Shown here in pieces: positions 3,217 through 13,313 of a stretch of 64,000 nucleotides of DNA. Under the pieces are notes generated by a model that saw nothing but the letters and a program-made list of their open reading frames with translations, searched no databases and was not told the origin of the DNA. The stretch's first letter is position 1; every line of letters starts with the position of its first letter. Origin of the DNA: Chlorobium sp. (lineage in GTDB: Bacteria; Bacteroidota; Chlorobiia; Chlorobiales; Chlorobiaceae); contig SZXW01000007.1 of NCBI GenBank assembly GCA_005862285.1, positions 62,001 to 126,000 of the forward strand. Reading direction: 5' to 3'. A program made the position numbers and the translations under genes.

Positions 3217-4386
3217 GTGCCTGATGTATTTAACATAATTTATTCTGTAATTCTTGCATCATGGAAGGTACTGCTTGATTCGGCACCTTTTGTGCTTCTC
3301 GGATTCTTCATGTCGGGATTATTGAAAGCTTTTCTTCCGGATGATTTCGTGGCAAGGCATTTGAGCGGCAGTGGAGTTGGAAGTATCTTTAAAGGCGCTT
3401 TGCTCGGGGTTCCGATTCCTCTCTGCAGTTGCGGAGTTCTGCCTGCAGCTGCAGGCCTTAAAAAGCAGGGTGCGGGTAAAGGTGCGGTCACTTCGTTTCT
3501 CATTTCAACACCTGAAACGGGCAAGGATGCCATAGCGGTTACCTATGCCCTTCTCGATCCGCTTATGGCAGTAGTGCGACCGGTCGTAGCCGTCATTATG
3601 GCGATAGGAACGGGAATATTCGTTTCTTTTTCAGAGAGGGGTAAGGAAGGCCTGGACCATTCTGAACATGATACCGGAAATGGTCATGCACAAACATGCA
3701 GTTCCTCATGCTGCACCAGTCATTCCGTCCATGAAAAGAGAACGGTATACGAAAAATTCAGGGGGGGAATGTCATTTGCATTCGGAGATCTGCTGAAGGA
3801 TGTCGCGGGATGGCTGTTTGTCGGCATCATGATTTCCGGTTTGATATCAGTTTTTATTTCGACTGAAATAGTGGAACGTTTTTTTTCTAACGAATTCTTT
3901 TCAATGATTCTGATGTTCCTGTTTTCAGTACCTCTGTATGTTTGTGCCACTTCTTCCACACCTATCGTTGCGGCTCTTGCACTGAAAGGCCTTTCTCCCG
4001 GTGCGGCTCTTGTTTTTCTTCTTGCCGGACCTGCAACAAATGCCGCTTCACTTCCGGTCATTTCCAGAATTCTCGGAAAAAAAGCCACAGTAGTTTATCT
4101 GTTGTCCATTGTCGTCATATCGATAATTTCCGGATTGCTGGTGAACGATCTTTACCGGTATCTCGGACTGGATATAAAACACTGGGTCAGCCAGGCGATT
4201 CATGAGGAAGGCGGTGTTATTCCTGTAGTATCTTCAGTTCTTCTTGTTGCACTGGTCATCAAATCATTTCTGCCGGCGAAACGCTCCTGTTGCGATACCG
4301 GGGCACATAGCCATGACGGTTCACATGAAGGACACAATGCAAAGATTCACAACGAAGATCATGTACATTGCGAGTGCGTAAAATAA
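3217..4386 (+). CDS. SO_0444/DUF318-type permease, putative Cu/Zn efflux
   Basis: GTG start. Multi-TM protein with PLCSCGVLPAAAGLKKQGAGKGAVTSFLISTPETG and internal and C-terminal His/Cys-rich segments (DHSEHDTGNGHAQTCSSSCCTSH; HSHDGSHEGHNAKIHNEDHVHCEC). Confidence 0.8.
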   Translation: MPDVFNIIYSVILASWKVLLDSAPFVLLGFFMSGLLKAFLPDDFVARHLSGSGVGSIFKGALLGVPIPLCSCGVLPAAAGLKKQGAGKGAVTSFLISTPETGKDAIAVTYALLDPLMAVVRPVVAVIMAIGTGIFVSFSERGKEGLDHSEHDTGNGHAQTCSSSCCTSHSVHEKRTVYEKFRGGMSFAFGDLLKDVAGWLFVGIMISGLISVFISTEIVERFFSNEFFSMILMFLFSVPLYVCATSSTPIVAALALKGLSPGAALVFLLAGPATNAASLPVISRILGKKATVVYLLSIVVISIISGLLVNDLYRYLGLDIKHWVSQAIHEEGGVIPVVSSVLLVALVIKSFLPAKRSCCDTGAHSHDGSHEGHNAKIHNEDHVHCECVK

Positions 4387-4409
4387 TAAAGGGCAGTGCA
4401 AGGCGCCTG

Positions 4410-6686
4410 TTACAGTTTCCTTGTTTTGAGCCGGAGTGAATTGCTGACAACCGAAACGCTGCTTCCCGCCATGGCAAGCCCTGAAAAAACAGGGTTCAGG
4501 AATATCCCCCAGATAGGGTAAAGTGCCCCAGCGGCGAGCGGAATCCCGATGATGTTGTAGATAAATGCCCAGAACAGGTTCTGGCGGATAACGTTCATTG
4601 TGGCATGAGAGAGCGTTATAGCCTGTGCAATTTTTCTGATATCGCCCTTGAGGAGGGTAATGCCTGCCGACTCGATTGCGATATCGGTTCCTGTAGCCAT
4701 TGCGATACCGACATCTGCCAGCGCGAGGGCGGGAGCGTCATTGATGCCGTCACCGGCCATTGCTACTTTTTTTCCGTTTGCCTGAAGGGCCTTGATTTTT
4801 TCAGCCTTCTCGCCGGGCATGACTTCGGAAAAAACATCATCGATCCCTGCCTGTCCGGCAATATATGCTGCAGCTGACTTGTTGTCTCCGGTCACCATGA
4901 TAACCTTCAGGCCCATGCGGTGCAGCGCGGAGATTGATTCGGCAGCATGCGGCTTTACCGTGTCACTCAGAGCGATAAGGCCTTTCAGTGTCCCGTTTTC
5001 TTCGACGATGACAACGGTTTTTCCCTGATCCTGAAGCTTTTTGATTTCAGGATTGCCTTTTTCATTGGTACCGGGTTTTCGAACGATAATCGAACTGCCG
5101 TCGATCGAGCCCGAAACCCCGATTCCTTCAAGAGCCTCGAATGACACTATCTCGCCGGGAACAAGGCCCTTCTGGCCGGCATGTTCAACGATAGCCCTTG
5201 CAAGCGGATGTTCCGAACGGTTTTCAACACTTGCCGCAAGCTGAAGCACCAAATTCTTACCGGCAGCGCCATCAAACGATATGATATCTGTAACCGCAGG
5301 GTTTCCGGTTGTGATGGTCCCGGTTTTATCGAGCACGATGGTATCGACAGCTGCAAGCTTTTCAAGGCTTTCGGCGTTACGGATCAGTATTCCGTATTCC
5401 GCACCTTTGCCGACGCCGACTATGATGGCCGTCGGTGTTGCGAGGCCGAGAGCGCAGGGGCATGCTATCACGAGAATACCGACCATTCCCATGATACCGA
5501 ATGAGAGTGCCTGCGAAAACCCGATGAAATAAGACCCGGCGGTAAGCCAGACGATCAAACAGAGTGCGGCGATAACAAGCACGGCAGGCACAAAAACACC
5601 GGCAATCCAGTCGGCGATATGCTGTATGGGCGCTTTGGACCCCTGTGCATCCTCGACCATCCTGATGATGCGGGAAAGCACCGTATCCTTGCCGACATTC
5701 GAAGCGACAAACGTGAAGGACCCCTGTTTGTTGATGGTTCCCCCGATTACTGTGTCGCTTTTCTTTTTATCGACTGGAAGGGGTTCGCCTGATACCATGG
5801 ATTCGTCAACTGATGAAAAGCCATCAGTGACGGTGCCGTCCACGGGAATTTTAGTCCCGGGTTTTACGATCACCTGGTCGCCCTTTCTTACCTGTTCGAG
5901 AGGAATTTCAATCTCCTTGCCGTTTCTCAGCACAAGGGCGGATTTTGCCTGAAGGCCGATGAGCTTTTCGATGGCTTCCCCGGTTTTCATTTTCGAGCGG
6001 GCTTCCAGATATTTACCGAGCAGAACGAAACCTATCACGACGATAGTGACATCGAAATAAGTATAATCGGGGATTCGAAGAAGCTGCTTTATTGGCGGGA
6101 CAAGCGTTATGAGGGCGCTGAAGATGAAGGCCGTCAGCGTGCCGAGACCGATCAGGGTGTCCATGTTTGCCGCTCCCGTGCGGATAAAGAGCGTTATGCC
6201 ATGAAGAAACGGAGCTCCCGTGCGGAAAACCATGTAGGTCGAAATCGCCATGGAGATGACATTGAACAGCTCCATCGGAACCGGCAGATTGGGTACGGCA
6301 GGGACTATCTTTGCCGCGATATCCCACATCATCAGCAGGAAAACAAGAAGGGCCAGAGGAAATGCAAAAAGCACCTTTGCGAGCTGTTCGTCGAGTTCAC
6401 GCTGCTTTTCTTCCTTAATCAGGGAAACATCCGCAGGAGCGGATGGGAAAACAGGGCAGGTATCACTTTCAGGATGTTCTGCAATCAGATTGTAACCATA
6501 TTTTTCGATGACATCGTTGAGGGCATTGGCGGAAAGAGCTTCGCCCTCGAATTCGATACTTGCTTTTTCCGTAGCAAGATTGACATCGACTTGTCTTATG
6601 CCCTCGACTTTCGAGAGCTTTTTCGAGATGATGGCCGCACAGCTCGCGCAGTGCATGCCTTTGACCGTATATGTTTCCTTGCTCAT
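4410..6686 (-). CDS. copA: Copper-translocating P1B-type ATPase
   Basis: N-terminal GMHCASC HMA domain, [19 protein letters not shown] and [10 protein letters not shown] motifs. Confidence 0.95.
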
Positions 6687-7321
6687 GGACAGGGGCTCAT
6701 GTCTGCAGTGTTATACCAGGATTTTCTCCATACCCTGAGAAGTGCAAGGTTTTCATGCAGGGACCGTTCGGTTTCATCGGCATTGTCGAGTATTTCCGAA
6801 CGGCCTGATTTCAGGCGGATCGCCCTTGCCATTTGTATTCCTCTTTCATGATGGGCGATCAGTGCGTTCAGGAAACGGAGATCAAACGTATGGTTGTAGG
6901 CTCCGAGATGGACAACCTGAGGGTCCTGACCGATTTTGCTGTTATCGAACCATTGTGTTTTCCATTTTTTCAACTGTTCTATTACTGCTGGTTCATTTTT
7001 GAGTATATCGGAGCACAGTTTCAGGATCTCCGGCCTTCGACTTGCTTTTGCTTCCTGTGCAAGCAGTATCGCTTCACGGTGATGAGCGATCATGTCATCG
7101 ATGTACCTGAGGTCTGTCCATTTGTCCGAGGTATTCATATCCATAACGGATTTGTCATACATCGTCATTCGATACTCGGGAGTAAGCCAGTAACCTGTTC
7201 CCGTACCGATGACGAAGGCCGCAATCATCAGGGAAATTGTCAGGGGCAACGATACTTTCTGCATGGAAGCTCTGTTATTGTTATGCTTTACGTAATGAGC
7301 CAAGAGCGCCTGTGCTTGCAT
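6683..7321 (-). CDS. DUF305-family periplasmic/membrane protein, coupled to copA
   Basis: [19 protein letters not shown] and [12 protein letters not shown] motifs; stop overlaps the copA start by 4 bp. Confidence 0.85.
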
Positions 7322-7616: not shown

Positions 7617-7715
7617 TGTCATTCTGAATGAAGTGTAGCGTAATGAAGAATCCATTTTGTTACTATAAAATAAGTTATGGATTCTTCGGCCGACTGCATC
7701 GGCCTCAGAATGACA
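7617..7715. repeat. Degenerate dispersed inverted-repeat element (TCATTCTGA/HPERSE type)
   Basis: Left arm TGTCATTCTGAATGAAG...GAAGAATCCAT; right arm ATGGATTCTTCGG...TCAGAATGACA. Confidence 0.7.
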
Positions 7716-7772
7716 AAATTGGAATTATTGTTGCTGACCAGGATGAACAGTTCTAATCGCCGGAATAATAAT

Positions 7773-9113
7773 ATGACACAAATGCAGGTACTTGTCGTAG
7801 ATGACGAGATGAACATAAGAAAGACACTTGCACTTTTCATGGAATCGAGGGGTCACAAAGTAACAACGGCAAACAGTTCACGTTCTGCGCTGGACGAAAT
7901 TGCACGGAACCGTTATGATCTCGCATTTGTCGATATCAGGCTTGGTACCGAGAGCGGACTCGATCTGGTAAAGGTTTTTACAAACACTTGCCCATCGATG
8001 AAGGTTATTGTCATAACGGCTTATGCTTCGATCGATACCGCTGTTGAAGCCATGAAACGCGGAGCCTCCGATTATCTCGCCAAACCATTTACACCCGCTC
8101 AGCTCGAAATGATGATTGAACGGCTGGCTGCGATGTGTGAAATGGAAAAAAGGATCGCATTCCTCCAGGACACGCTCGACAACATCAATCCTGAAGTAAC
8201 ATTTGTTTCCCGGGATGCGGCAATGCAGAAAACAATTGAACTTGCAAAGCAGGTTGCCTCTTCGGAAGCAGTTGTGATGCTTCGCGGACCGAGCGGCACC
8301 GGAAAAAGTGTCCTGGCCCGATCGATCCACCAGTGGAGCAAACGGTCTCATAATCCTTTCAGCATTATTTCCTGTCCATCACTAAGTCATGAATTGCTTG
8401 AAAGTGAACTTTTCGGACATGTAAAAGGTGCTTTTACCGGAGCGCTCAGGGATAATCCCGGCAGGATTGCCGCAAGCGAGGGAGGCACCCTTTTTCTTGA
8501 CGAAATAGGTGACATCCCGCTCTCAATTCAACCGAAACTGCTGCGGTTCATTCAGGAAAGGGAATATGAACGGGTAGGCGATCATCTCACCAGAAAAGCC
8601 GATGTCCGTATTTTAGCAGCGACAAACAACGATCTTGAAAAAGCTCTCGAGAAAGGGTGCTTCCGTGAAGATCTCTATTATCGTCTGAATGTCGTCCAGA
8701 TTTTTCTGCCGCCGCTTGCTGAGAGAAAAAGAGATATACCTGAACTGGCCGAAAAAACGCTTGCCGGTTTCAACGCTCAATACCACAAGAGTATCCATGC
8801 TTTCAGCAATGAAGTCATCTCCATGTTTCAGGAATATTCCTGGCCGGGAAACATAAGGGAACTCAGGAATGTAATTGAACGTGCAGTTATTCTCTGTGAA
8901 AACAACATCATCGGTAAAGAGCTTCTTCCTGATTCTATCTCGGCAAAAAGTTCACCGGTAAGAATCGGTGATATGGTTACCCTCGAGTCAATTGAAGAAA
9001 TGCATATACGACAGGTTCTTGAGAGCACAAAATCACTTCAGGAAGCGGCAAGCGTTCTTGGTATCGACCAGGCAACCCTCTGGAGAAAACGAAAACAGTT
9101 CGGCATTCTGTAA
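7773..9113 (+). CDS. Sigma-54-dependent response regulator (NtrC/AtoC family)
   Basis: Receiver domain ([11 protein letters not shown]...DIRLG), AAA+ domain with [16 protein letters not shown] and LFLDEIGD, and C-terminal Fis-type HTH. Start at 7773 ([12 protein letters not shown]) preferred over 7677. Confidence 0.95.
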
Positions 9114-9133: not shown

Positions 9134-9180
9134 ATTGCAAAATGCAATTTTCGATATGTCGAATAATTGCGTTTTGCAAT
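9134..9180. promoter_or_regulatory. Putative enhancer (UAS) for the sigma-54 activator: two palindromes
   Basis: ATTGCAAAATGCAAT (9134-9148) and ATTGCGTTTTGCAAT (9166-9180), centre spacing 32 bp, inside a larger inverted repeat. Confidence 0.6.
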
Positions 9181-9256
9181 CCGTCCTTTTGAACAATTTC
9201 ATGCTATCATTATTCATCTTGTTAATTTAAAATGACTTTTATGTTTTAAAGCGAAA

Positions 9257-9272
9257 TGGCACGGTTTTTGAT
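9257..9272 (+). promoter_or_regulatory. Putative sigma-54 (-24/-12) promoter
   Basis: TGGCACGGTTTTTGAT against consensus TGGCACG-N4-TTGCW: GG then N10 then GA (one mismatch at -12). Confidence 0.6.
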
Positions 9273-9420
9273 CTACCAAAAAGTCGTTTTATGGAGAGAG
9301 TGCAAGTCATGCATGAATACCTGTTATGTCCGTATGTCTGCATATCAGGATATGTAAGGCTTTCGGTTAATGCTTGCCTGTTCATTTTTCATGATCTCTT
9401 GTCAACATCAGTTACGTATT

Positions 9421-11403
9421 ATGACAGTCAAACAGCAGTTCGCGCAGGTAAAAAAATTTTTTGTAGGCGGTTCCCGCGATTTTCGTGACAGCAGAATATT
9501 TCATGCAATCTCTCTTACAGCTTTTCTCGCCTGGGTAGGGCTCGGTTCCGATGGTCTTTCATCATCGTGTTACGGCCCGGCTGAAGCCTTCAAAGCCTTG
9601 CAAAGCCATCCCACACTTGGAATTTTTGTTGCGATTGCCACAGGCCTTACCATTCTTGTCATCGCTTCCAGCTATTCACACATCATCGAGCTGTTTCCTT
9701 CCGGCGGAGGGGGATATCTGGTCGCGAGCAAACTGCTTTCACCTGAAGTCGGCGTCGTTTCAGGCAGCGCCCTGCTCATCGATTATGTCCTCACGATCAC
9801 GATTTCCGTTGCTAGCGGGGCCGATGCCATTTTCAGTTTTCTGCCTCCTTATTTACTGACCTACAAGCTCTGGTTTGCGATCGCCGGAGTCCTTATCCTG
9901 CTCATTCTGAACCTGAGAGGTATCAAAGAAGCCGTTTTGCCACTCGTACCCGTTTTCATGCTTTTCGTCCTGACCCACTTGATCGCTATCGCTTTTGCCG
10001 TCGGCTCTCATCTTATGAATTTCAGCACTGTGTATCATGAGACAGCAACGGAACTTGACCGGTCTTTTCATTCACTCGGCCTTTTCGGCGTCATGTTTCT
10101 GATTCTAAAAGCCTACAGCCTCGGTGCCGGTACCTTTACCGGTATCGAAGCGGTAAGCAATGGACTGCCTGTGCTCAGGGACCCGAAAATCCGCACGGCA
10201 AAAGTCACGATGCGTTATATGGCATGGTCGCTCTCGATAACCGTTATGGGACTTATGGCGGCCTACATCCTGCTCGGCGTACAGGACACCCCCGGCAAAA
10301 CCCTCAATGCGGTGCTGTTCGAATCGATCACGGCTTCATGGGGGCATGTGAGCGGCGTCGCATTTGTATGGATCACTCTGTTATCGGAAGCGATCCTGCT
10401 GTTTATCGCGGCTCAGACAGGTTTTCTCGACGGTCCGAGAGTTCTGGCGAACATGGCCCTTGACAACTGGCTGCCAAAGAAATTCGCCATGCTCAGTGAC
10501 CGTCTTGTCACGGAACGAGGAATTCTTGTCATGGGGCTTGCATCACTCGTCATGATGATAGTATCGAATGGTTCCGTCGATTTCCTCATCGTGCTTTACA
10601 GTATCAACGTTTTCATCACGTTCACCCTTTCCCAGCTTGGCATGGTCAGGCACTGGTGGCAGGAAAGAGGAAGCGAAAAAAAATGGATCAGCAAGATCAC
10701 GATCAACGGTATCGGCCTGGTGCTCACCACCTTCATCCTGCTTGCAGTCCTGCTGCTCAAGTTCAATGAAGGCGGGTGGATCACCATGCTTATAACCGGT
10801 TGTCTCGTCCTGTTCGCTCTTTATATCAAAAACCATTACAACAAAACATACGAAATCCTCAAGCGGCTCGATATCATTGTGGAAGCGGCTGTCCTGTCAG
10901 GCAGTGATGTCATCGCAAAAGAAAAGCCGGAGCCGGTTTACAACCCGAAAGCCAAGACGGCGGCTATTCTCGTGAACGGATTCAACGGGCTTGGCCTGCA
11001 TACGCTTTTCAGTGTCAATCGCCTGTTCGGCGGGGTTTACAAAAATTTTGTTTTTGTGGAAATCGGTGCAATCGATGCAGGCAGTTTCAAGGGCGCCGAT
11101 GAAATCGGCCATCTGAACGAGTATATCAGAAGCGAAAGCGGTAAGTATGTCGATTATATGAAAGAGAATGGTTACTATTCCGAAGCGTTTACATCGCTCG
11201 GAACGGATATCGTTGAAGAGATCAACAATCTTGTACCGAAAATCACGGAAAAATTTCCTGATATCGTCTTTTTCGGCGGGCAGCTTGTTTTTTCCAATGA
11301 ATCGCTGCTCGACAGGGTTCTGCATAACTACACCGTATTTGCCGTTCAGCAGAATCTTTACCTGCAGGGAATTCCCTTTCTCATTCTGCCGATACGGGTA
11401 TAA
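9421..11403 (+). CDS. APC-superfamily amino acid/cation permease with C-terminal soluble domain
   Basis: Multi-TM ORF (AWVGLGSDGLSSSCYGPAEAF, SGGGGYLVASKLLSP). Likely start at ATG 9421 (MTVKQQFAQ). Confidence 0.8.
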   Translation: MTVKQQFAQVKKFFVGGSRDFRDSRIFHAISLTAFLAWVGLGSDGLSSSCYGPAEAFKALQSHPTLGIFVAIATGLTILVIASSYSHIIELFPSGGGGYLVASKLLSPEVGVVSGSALLIDYVLTITISVASGADAIFSFLPPYLLTYKLWFAIAGVLILLILNLRGIKEAVLPLVPVFMLFVLTHLIAIAFAVGSHLMNFSTVYHETATELDRSFHSLGLFGVMFLILKAYSLGAGTFTGIEAVSNGLPVLRDPKIRTAKVTMRYMAWSLSITVMGLMAAYILLGVQDTPGKTLNAVLFESITASWGHVSGVAFVWITLLSEAILLFIAAQTGFLDGPRVLANMALDNWLPKKFAMLSDRLVTERGILVMGLASLVMMIVSNGSVDFLIVLYSINVFITFTLSQLGMVRHWWQERGSEKKWISKITINGIGLVLTTFILLAVLLLKFNEGGWITMLITGCLVLFALYIKNHYNKTYEILKRLDIIVEAAVLSGSDVIAKEKPEPVYNPKAKTAAILVNGFNGLGLHTLFSVNRLFGGVYKNFVFVEIGAIDAGSFKGADEIGHLNEYIRSESGKYVDYMKENGYYSEAFTSLGTDIVEEINNLVPKITEKFPDIVFFGGQLVFSNESLLDRVLHNYTVFAVQQNLYLQGIPFLILPIRV

Positions 11404-11498: not shown

Positions 11499-13313
11499 AT
11501 GATCAGCATTCGGTACAAACTTGTCCTCGGGTTTGTGGGGATTCTGGCAATGATAGCGGTTATCGGCACACTGACGATAAACCAGGTCGATCAGCTCGGC
11601 AACGCCATCAATGTTATTCTGACGCAGAATTACCGCAGTGTCGCTGCCAGCCAGGAGATGAAGGAAGCGCTGGAAAAAATGGACAGCGGCATCCTTTTTT
11701 CCTTTGCCGGGCATCATGAAACCGGGCAGCGTAATATCCGTGAGAATGAAACCCAGTTTCGAAAAGCACTGAAAATCGAGCTTGGCAATATAACCATTCC
11801 GGGGGAAAAGGAAAAAGCAGATAGGATAGCTCAACTGTTTGAAGAATACGTTACGGTTCTGCATCAGGTAGTCGATGACAGAATACCTTTATCGAAAAGG
11901 ACCGAAACCTATTTTTCCACACTGTTGCCTCTCCTGACGGAAATCAAAACCCTTGCCCAGCAGGTTCTCGATATGAATCAGGCAAAAATGGATGAAGCCA
12001 ACTATTCCGCAAGGCTTCTCGGGGTTTCAGCACATAACCGGATTCTCGCTGCGATCGCGGCAAGCGCTGCATTTGCGGTGTTCTTCAGTTTTCTTTCACG
12101 CAGATGGATTCTCAAACCCATCCGGAAACTTATCAATTCCACCAATGAAATCCGGAACGGAAATCTTGACCTTGTTCTTGAAACAGAGACAAAGGATGAA
12201 ATCGGTCAGCTTTCATCGGCGTTCAATGATATGGCCCTGACCTTGCGCCAGGTCCGCAATAATGACAGGGAAAAGATCCAGAGAACCAGCAGGGCCACAC
12301 AGGAGGTAATGAACATCCTCCCTACGCCGATAGCTATTTTTGATACCGGCGGCAAGGTTGATGTGGCAACAAGAACGGCAATACGATATTTCGGGTTGAA
12401 TCCAGGGGTATCGGCAGAAAATACAGGTTATTCATGGCTGCCGTCATTGCTCCGGAAAGCAGCCCGTGAAGGCTGCGCGGTCGAAACGGAAAACGGAAGC
12501 TGCATTCAGAAATTTATCGATAACCGTGAATTTTTCTTCAGGCCTGCAGCAGTGCCCATTCCTCCGTTTTCAAACACGGAAGGTGTCAGCGGTACCGTGC
12601 TGGTGCTGCATGACATGACACAGGTTCATGAACAGAAAGAACTGAAAAGAGGTGTCGTGTCAACAGTTTCCCATCAGCTCCGTACCCCTTTGACTTCCCT
12701 GCGTATGTCCATTCATCTGTTACTTGAGGAACGGTTAGGCTTGCTGAATGAAAAACAGTGCGAGCTGCTGCAGACAGCAAAGGATGAGAGCGAACGTCTT
12801 GCGGATATTCTTGACGAACTGCTCGATCTCAACAGGATCGAAGCGGGTAGGGCCCGGCTTGATATGCAGTCATTCGATCCGGAAACGCTTGTAAGGTCAT
12901 GTCTGGAACCTTTCTACAACCAGGCAGAGGAAAAGGGCATTGCCCTGGTGGTTGAGCTTCCGGAATCGCTTCCGGAAGTTCTTGCGGACAGACAAAGTAT
13001 TCAGCATGTATTTGCAAATCTTCTTTCAAATGCTATCCGTTTCACAGGACCTGGAGGAAAGATAACCGTGACAGCTGCAGCAGGGCTTTCCGGGATCAGG
13101 TTTTCCGTGCTCGATACCGGAGAGGGTATCGCTCCGGAACATCTTAAACATCTTTTCGACCAGTTCTACAGGGTTCCCGGTCAGGACGATAAATCCGGTA
13201 TCGGGCTCGGTCTTTCGATAGCCAAGGAAATCGTCAGTGCTCATGGCGGGAGCGTCGGTGTCGAAAGCACCATCGGGAAGGGATCTGTTTTTCATTTTAC
13301 CCTTCCTGTATAA
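11499..13313 (+). CDS. Membrane sensor histidine kinase (periplasmic sensor-HAMP-PAS-HisKA-HATPase)
   Basis: HAMP-like WILKPIRKLINSTNEIRNGNLDL, HisKA VVSTVSHQLRTPLTSLR, and NLLSNAIRFT/DTGEGI/GIGLGLSIAKEIV. Confidence 0.92.
   Translation: MISIRYKLVLGFVGILAMIAVIGTLTINQVDQLGNAINVILTQNYRSVAASQEMKEALEKMDSGILFSFAGHHETGQRNIRENETQFRKALKIELGNITIPGEKEKADRIAQLFEEYVTVLHQVVDDRIPLSKRTETYFSTLLPLLTEIKTLAQQVLDMNQAKMDEANYSARLLGVSAHNRILAAIAASAAFAVFFSFLSRRWILKPIRKLINSTNEIRNGNLDLVLETETKDEIGQLSSAFNDMALTLRQVRNNDREKIQRTSRATQEVMNILPTPIAIFDTGGKVDVATRTAIRYFGLNPGVSAENTGYSWLPSLLRKAAREGCAVETENGSCIQKFIDNREFFFRPAAVPIPPFSNTEGVSGTVLVLHDMTQVHEQKELKRGVVSTVSHQLRTPLTSLRMSIHLLLEERLGLLNEKQCELLQTAKDESERLADILDELLDLNRIEAGRARLDMQSFDPETLVRSCLEPFYNQAEEKGIALVVELPESLPEVLADRQSIQHVFANLLSNAIRFTGPGGKITVTAAAGLSGIRFSVLDTGEGIAPEHLKHLFDQFYRVPGQDDKSGIGLGLSIAKEIVSAHGGSVGVESTIGKGSVFHFTLPV

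Follow-up and report, generated by a model that had tools for sequence, protein, structure and literature searches.

The region between an NtrC-family response regulator gene and the gene of a KimA-type K+ importer (kimA) in the window, the whole 64,000-nucleotide stretch of Chlorobium DNA analysed here, is best explained as part of a sigma-54-dependent unit, with a switch of promoter class at the same place in relatives (a probability of roughly 0.7, judged from sequence comparison). We are confident that the window copy represents a standard sigma-54 enhancer unit, which would serve the K+ importer and, probably, its kinase. It is reasonably likely that in relatives a housekeeping promoter has taken over at these operator sites, with decay of the sigma-54 contact loop of the regulator. 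The odds look about even for the fullest version, in which within one genus a two-component operon swapped a sigma-54 promoter for a class-II housekeeping promoter at the same two operators, intermediates (type B1, below) use the regulator both ways, and decay of the loop sets in once the operon has lost its last sigma-54 promoter. Regulator binding, phosphorylation, the start sites, the sigma factor used, the direction of change, and activation as opposed to repression in the switched loci are all predictions of this comparison. Loci with a sigma-54 promoter before kimA are termed type A (14 loci: the window, its congeners G072 and G073, and 11 loci of a second genus), and those with TATGTT before kimA are termed type B (24 loci, all in the genus of the window).

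The regulator gene (7773..9113, + strand) encodes 446 residues comprising a receiver, an AAA+ domain and a Fis-type helix-turn-helix (HTH). Pfam matches to Response_reg (1.5e-26), Sigma54_activat (7.2e-65) and HTH_8 (6.5e-9), together with the orthologue alignment, confirmed the initial annotation of this gene as an NtrC-family activator with GAFTGA. The AAA+ sigma-54 interaction domain possesses both the GAFTGA and the Walker motifs; GAFTGA, the sigma-54 contact loop, occupies codons 219-224 (8427..8444, + strand) and in the orthologue alignment is intact in type A and altered in part of type B. The C-terminal Fis-type DNA-binding region (8973..9107, + strand) is accompanied by paired predicted binding sites upstream of the promoter. 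These two palindromic elements, box 1 (ATTGCAAAATGCAAT, 9134-9148) and box 2 (ATTGCGTTTTGCAAT, 9166-9180), neither assigned to a strand, have centres at 9141 and 9173, 32 bp apart, which correspond to about -142 and -110 relative to a start predicted at 9283 (+ strand) from the usual sigma-54 spacing. The -24/-12 element (TGGCACGGTTTTTGAT, 9257-9272, + strand) begins with the TGG at 9257, with 76 bases between it and box 2. The boxes, their positions and spacing, the -24/-12 element and the flanking genes are thus as first described. The pattern ATTGC-N4-TGCAAT has three matches in the 2.61-Mb genome, two of which are boxes 1 and 2, compared to 0 control matches. The third copy (L001:1501-1515) is unpaired and overlaps a 162-codon ORF on the opposite strand.

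Further analysis of the element at 9257-9272 revealed GG at -25/-24 and TTG ending at -12 at the fixed spacing; however, the canonical C after TTG (TTGC) is absent. The -12 element instead reads TTGA, which is fixed in 14/14 type-A promoters and was taken as a tolerated variant because the remaining promoter sequence is conserved. As a positive control for the method, the nifH promoters of relatives were recovered in 12/12 cases, 99-108 bp upstream, with TTGC in 11 of the 12 and TTGA in one nifH-type promoter. The element is unique within the window at 0-2 mismatches, and genome-wide the consensus TGGCAC-N5-TTG-N-W is no commoner than the control in these pattern-based regulon searches (12 versus 12), so the call leans on position and conservation rather than on the motif alone. 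The genome-wide count and the TTGA would both suit a chance match with the kimA promoter elsewhere, but this is extremely unlikely, as the same element lies 76-80 bp past box 2 in 14 loci amid otherwise poorly conserved sequence. The proposed -24/-12 element is present and, in type A, conserved, though with a non-canonical -12. A TATGTTT at 9240-9246, 59 bp past box 2, was taken as a chance occurrence; it is absent from the 95%-identical G072.

The gene downstream of the promoter (9421..11403, + strand) encodes 660 residues from this ATG, with a further in-frame ATG upstream at 9370. Phmmer search matched it to 6s3k (E=3.3e-66), and it shares ~36% identity over 389 aligned positions with KimA of Bacillus subtilis, a member of the KUP family. 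For KimA, nine residues have been assigned to the K+ site, the gate and the tunnel (PMC6994465), and all nine (D36, Y43, D117, Y118, T121, S125, T230, E233 and Y377) are conserved in the window permease. The label of APC permease could thus be narrowed to KimA-type K+ importer, for which K+ uptake is predicted; compared to that of B. subtilis, this importer has a linked two-component control. The third gene of the conserved cluster (11499..13313, + strand) encodes a membrane-type histidine kinase with HAMP, HisKA and HATPase domains, the probable partner of the regulator. No promoter-like -24/-12 was found in the 95 bases between permease and kinase genes in the window, which fits co-transcription and the earlier suggestion that the kinase is probably under the same control. 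In the proposed mechanism, the kinase probably phosphorylates the regulator, which would bind the two boxes as an enhancer and loop to the -24/-12 element; its GAFTGA loop would then open the promoter, and kimA and the kinase gene would be transcribed as one operon from near 9283.

Two features lie beside this operon. Genes for an ArsP-type permease, a heavy-metal P-type ATPase and a DUF305 protein at 3217-7321 form a metal-handling neighbourhood. Directly upstream of the regulator, 7617-7716 contains an imperfect inverted repeat (TGTCATTCTGA...TCAGAATGACA) that folds far above shuffles (z -5.4); it resembles a small mobile or REP-like element, with no second copy within the window.

Within the family, 48 of 86 genomes, from both genera, encode the permease, compared to 0 of 12 searched genomes from other families of the order; many of the compared genomes are metagenome bins. 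Most fetched neighbourhoods have the gene order regulator-kimA-kinase, and both boxes are kept downstream of the regulator in every locus of the family where it adjoins kimA. The box spacing is 32 bp nearly always, with 31 in G053 and G026 and 42, one extra turn, in G079 and G039. A 45-bp double-box pattern with the 32-bp spacing matched 37 of the 86 genomes (control 0), mostly in regulator-kimA intergenic regions plus a few beside paralogous regulators. The expected conservation of the intergenic region in orthologues therefore stood for the boxes, but the -24/-12 is missing in the 24 type-B loci. In the kimA tree, types A and B are split by one fully supported branch, so the change of the kimA promoter may be a single event. 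An older origin of the regulator-kimA link was also sought beside more distant kimA genes and not found: the loci examined outside Chlorobiaceae, several of them on short contigs, have neither an adjacent close regulator homologue nor the box pair.

In all 14 type-A loci, the box pair is followed 76-80 bp past box 2 by TGGC-N7-TTGA, and the interval is otherwise poorly conserved. The G[AS]FTGA motif is intact in 11 of the 11 readable type-A regulators; in G064 and G066 the regulator is a degraded remnant, and the boxes and promoter are retained. A matrix built from these promoters scores 16.4-25.2 on type A, its own training set, compared to 10.4 at best in the regions upstream of kimA in type B. 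The sigma-54 reading of the window proposed in the initial annotation is supported by this co-conservation of boxes and -24/-12 in 14 loci of two genera, by the intact GAFTGA, Walker A and HTH, and by the presence of rpoN. In two genomes of the second genus (L082 and L120), an extra small ORF of ~75 codons (MSQERIVIEWDG... in L082) lies between the promoter and kimA.

In type B, the -24/-12 upstream of kimA is absent from all 24 loci. Instead, YTATGTT begins exactly 22 bp past the box 2 13-mer in 24/24 type-B loci with a regulator, and this distance is also held in both loci where box 1 is shifted by 10 bp. If TATGTT is a housekeeping-type -10, the centre of box 2 would lie at about -42 and that of box 1 at about -74 (-84 in two loci). 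A centre near -42 is the usual position of a class-II activator. The box-promoter spacing takes five values in type A versus a rigid one in type B, which would fit looping and direct contact, respectively. The -10 was identified solely by position and conservation, because TATGTT has no recognisable -35 and neither the E. coli-type consensus (TTGACA-N16-18-TANNNT) nor the Bacteroidetes-type consensus (TTTG-N18-20-TANNTTTG) is enriched in the genome of the window. We propose that the regulator at box 2 would act as a class-II activator of a housekeeping-type promoter, so that across relatives one box pair would serve two promoter classes.

Repression of kimA by the type-B regulator, with box 2 overlapping the -35 position and the bound protein blocking RNA polymerase, is conceivable though rather unlikely. 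Box 2 does abut the -35 position; however, no -35-like hexamer lies 17 bp from TATGTT, which suits an activator-dependent promoter, as does the class-II position of box 2. In favour of the repressive reading, sigma-70 promoters can be repressed by TyrR-like regulators that lack GAFTGA (literature cited in PMC3162934).

It is very unlikely that type B is still driven by sigma-54 through a divergent -24/-12 missed by the consensus. rpoN occurs in all genomes searched, and 60 bp past box 2 lie TGTTCCGGTTTTTGG in G069 and a sequence similar to it in G047. Nevertheless, only two of 27 type-B regions beat shuffles at p <=0.01, in none of the 27 does the -24 GG stand in register, and GAFTGA contains Pro in 11 regulators. 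A fossil -24/-12 was likewise looked for in the type-B regions and rejected; the scores are low and mostly no better than shuffles, so a fossil lends no support to the direction from A to B.

We also regard as unlikely that only the ordinary part is real, with a sigma-54 unit in type A and, in type B, a constitutive housekeeping promoter beside a regulator that is a relic or acts elsewhere. Consistent with it, three type-B-like loci (G086, G057 and G092) have a short degraded remnant of the end of the regulator, and the boxes are kept, TATGTT is changed and kimA persists; furthermore, kimA in G055 and G071 (L093 and L101) has neither boxes nor regulator and retains the promoter core TTTTGTTATGTTTG. 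In the 24 type-B loci, however, the box pair and the HTH are kept nearly unchanged and the spacing to TATGTT is rigid, including in those that have lost GAFTGA. A relic would not hold boxes, HTH and spacing in this way. Upstream of kimA in L098, L103 and L121, a degraded remnant of the regulator C-terminus is seen with both boxes still present.

Type A and a clade of type-B regulators with a T-to-P change in GAFTGA (the T-to-P clade) have a short gap, or one devoid of a promoter, between kimA and the kinase gene; in the other type-B loci, this gap spans 117-234 bp. In seven of these (G009, G037, G059, G027, G096, G079 and G039), it contains a second box pair and TGG[CT]AC-N5-TTG, and such loci are termed type B1. 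The boxes of this module are mostly spaced by 32 bp, and TGG follows ~54-55 bp further. The same module, a box pair with a -24/-12, precedes the kinase in most kinase-only loci. The -24 GG of the kinase promoter is lost in G021, G080, G081 and G032, and reads CGG in G046. Type B1 has both an intact GAFTGA and, ahead of the kinase, a sigma-54 module; in the other type-B loci, no sigma-54 promoter of the operon is intact, and most of them have a damaged GAFTGA and an unchanged DNA-binding region. A recurrent TTTTC-rich block with TTRAT or TTGAT was seen in the kimA-kinase gap of L109, L111, L113 and L119, ~20 bp upstream of the kinase -24, and is possibly a site for a bending protein.

Comparison of the regulators showed that all seven loci in which the kinase promoter is intact also encode an intact GAFTGA. 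In type B2 regulators, GAFTGA is changed and the DNA-binding domain is kept; Chlorobium ferrooxidans DSM 13031 (L178) belongs to this type. The Thr is replaced by Pro in 11 type-B regulators forming one clade, by Ala in G046 and by Ser in G021, and the first Gly by Val in G081; the T-to-P change may represent one event. According to a literature survey, activity is mostly abolished by single changes in GAFTGA, chiefly those at F and T, and apparent non-sigma-54 family members favour Pro as the replacement (PMC3162934). The survey accepts Ser in place of the Thr as functional (PMC3162934), so G021 is weak evidence. In the T-to-P clade, otherwise invariant sites are changed in 41/737 cells of AAA+, 3/325 of the receiver and 0/165 of the HTH (15 invariant positions). 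The AAA+ changes concentrate at T222P and V307G, both in all 11 regulators, seven of which also have S211R, a change at H216 and a Walker A of GTGKN. The type-A clade has AAA+ changes in 31/720 cells, a similar overall rate with milder kinds of change.

Among 40 loci, promoter and motif are both intact in 24, only the promoter in 1, only the motif in 4 and neither in 11 (Fisher p ~6e-6, with rows related by kinship). On the regulator tree, the independent promoter contrasts number only five, averaging 1.8 concordant, 0.1 discordant and 3.1 uninformative, which is too few for significance in a phylogeny-corrected test of promoter loss against motif loss, and the link is therefore suggestive, short of proof. 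The exceptions are G080 and G032, which keep GSFTGA beside a degenerate kinase promoter; G017, which keeps GAFTGA with no recognised promoter in the regulator-kinase gap; G040p, with CGG; and G013p, with GAFTSA next to an intact promoter. As rpoN is present in 61/61 searched genomes of the order, loss of sigma-54 itself is not the cause of these promoter and loop changes.

The window system resembles the enhancer-binding proteins of the NtrC, ZraR and AtoC type in its receiver, AAA+ domain with GAFTGA, Fis-type HTH, paired palindromic upstream sites and -24/-12. However, the regulator falls below every NCBIfam equivalog cut-off (the best being AtoC, 393.7 versus 714), the target is a KimA-type K+ importer and the -12 is TTGA. 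To our knowledge, the NtrC-type regulators known to have abandoned sigma-54 are isolated end points. Such NtrC-family proteins, with the sigma-54 loop lost and acting at sigma-70 promoters, include the GAFTGA-less NtrC of Rhodobacter capsulatus and Caulobacter, VpsR, TyrR, HupR and DhaR (PMC10274813, PMC3162934). The loop is mostly deleted in the NtrC of Caulobacter and Rhodobacter, whereas here point changes occur within one genus, and the motif persists together with the same boxes and a sigma-54 promoter in close orthologues. A single NtrC-family protein, FleQ of Pseudomonas aeruginosa, has been described at promoters of both the sigma-54 and the sigma-70 class (PMC10723142); type B1 regulators would similarly serve both classes, in one operon, although FleQ itself functions together with FleN and c-di-GMP. 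Searches of the open-access literature turned up no paper on this case and nothing usable on Chlorobiaceae start sites.

The close orthologues look like successive states, from sigma-54 only through a mixed operon, loss of the sigma-54 promoter with a damaged loop, and a regulator remnant with boxes, to loss of the boxes. Such a series would allow testing how an enhancer protein turns into a promoter-proximal activator, and in which order the changes occur. In addition, a green sulfur bacterial two-component system without a name gains a likely target and a likely signal area, potassium supply. Paralogous regulator-kinase pairs (L131-L133 and L137) have differing boxes, e.g. TTGAATTTTGCAC / GTGCAATTTACAC, and their HTH also differs at otherwise invariant positions, suggesting a possible divergence of binding specificity.
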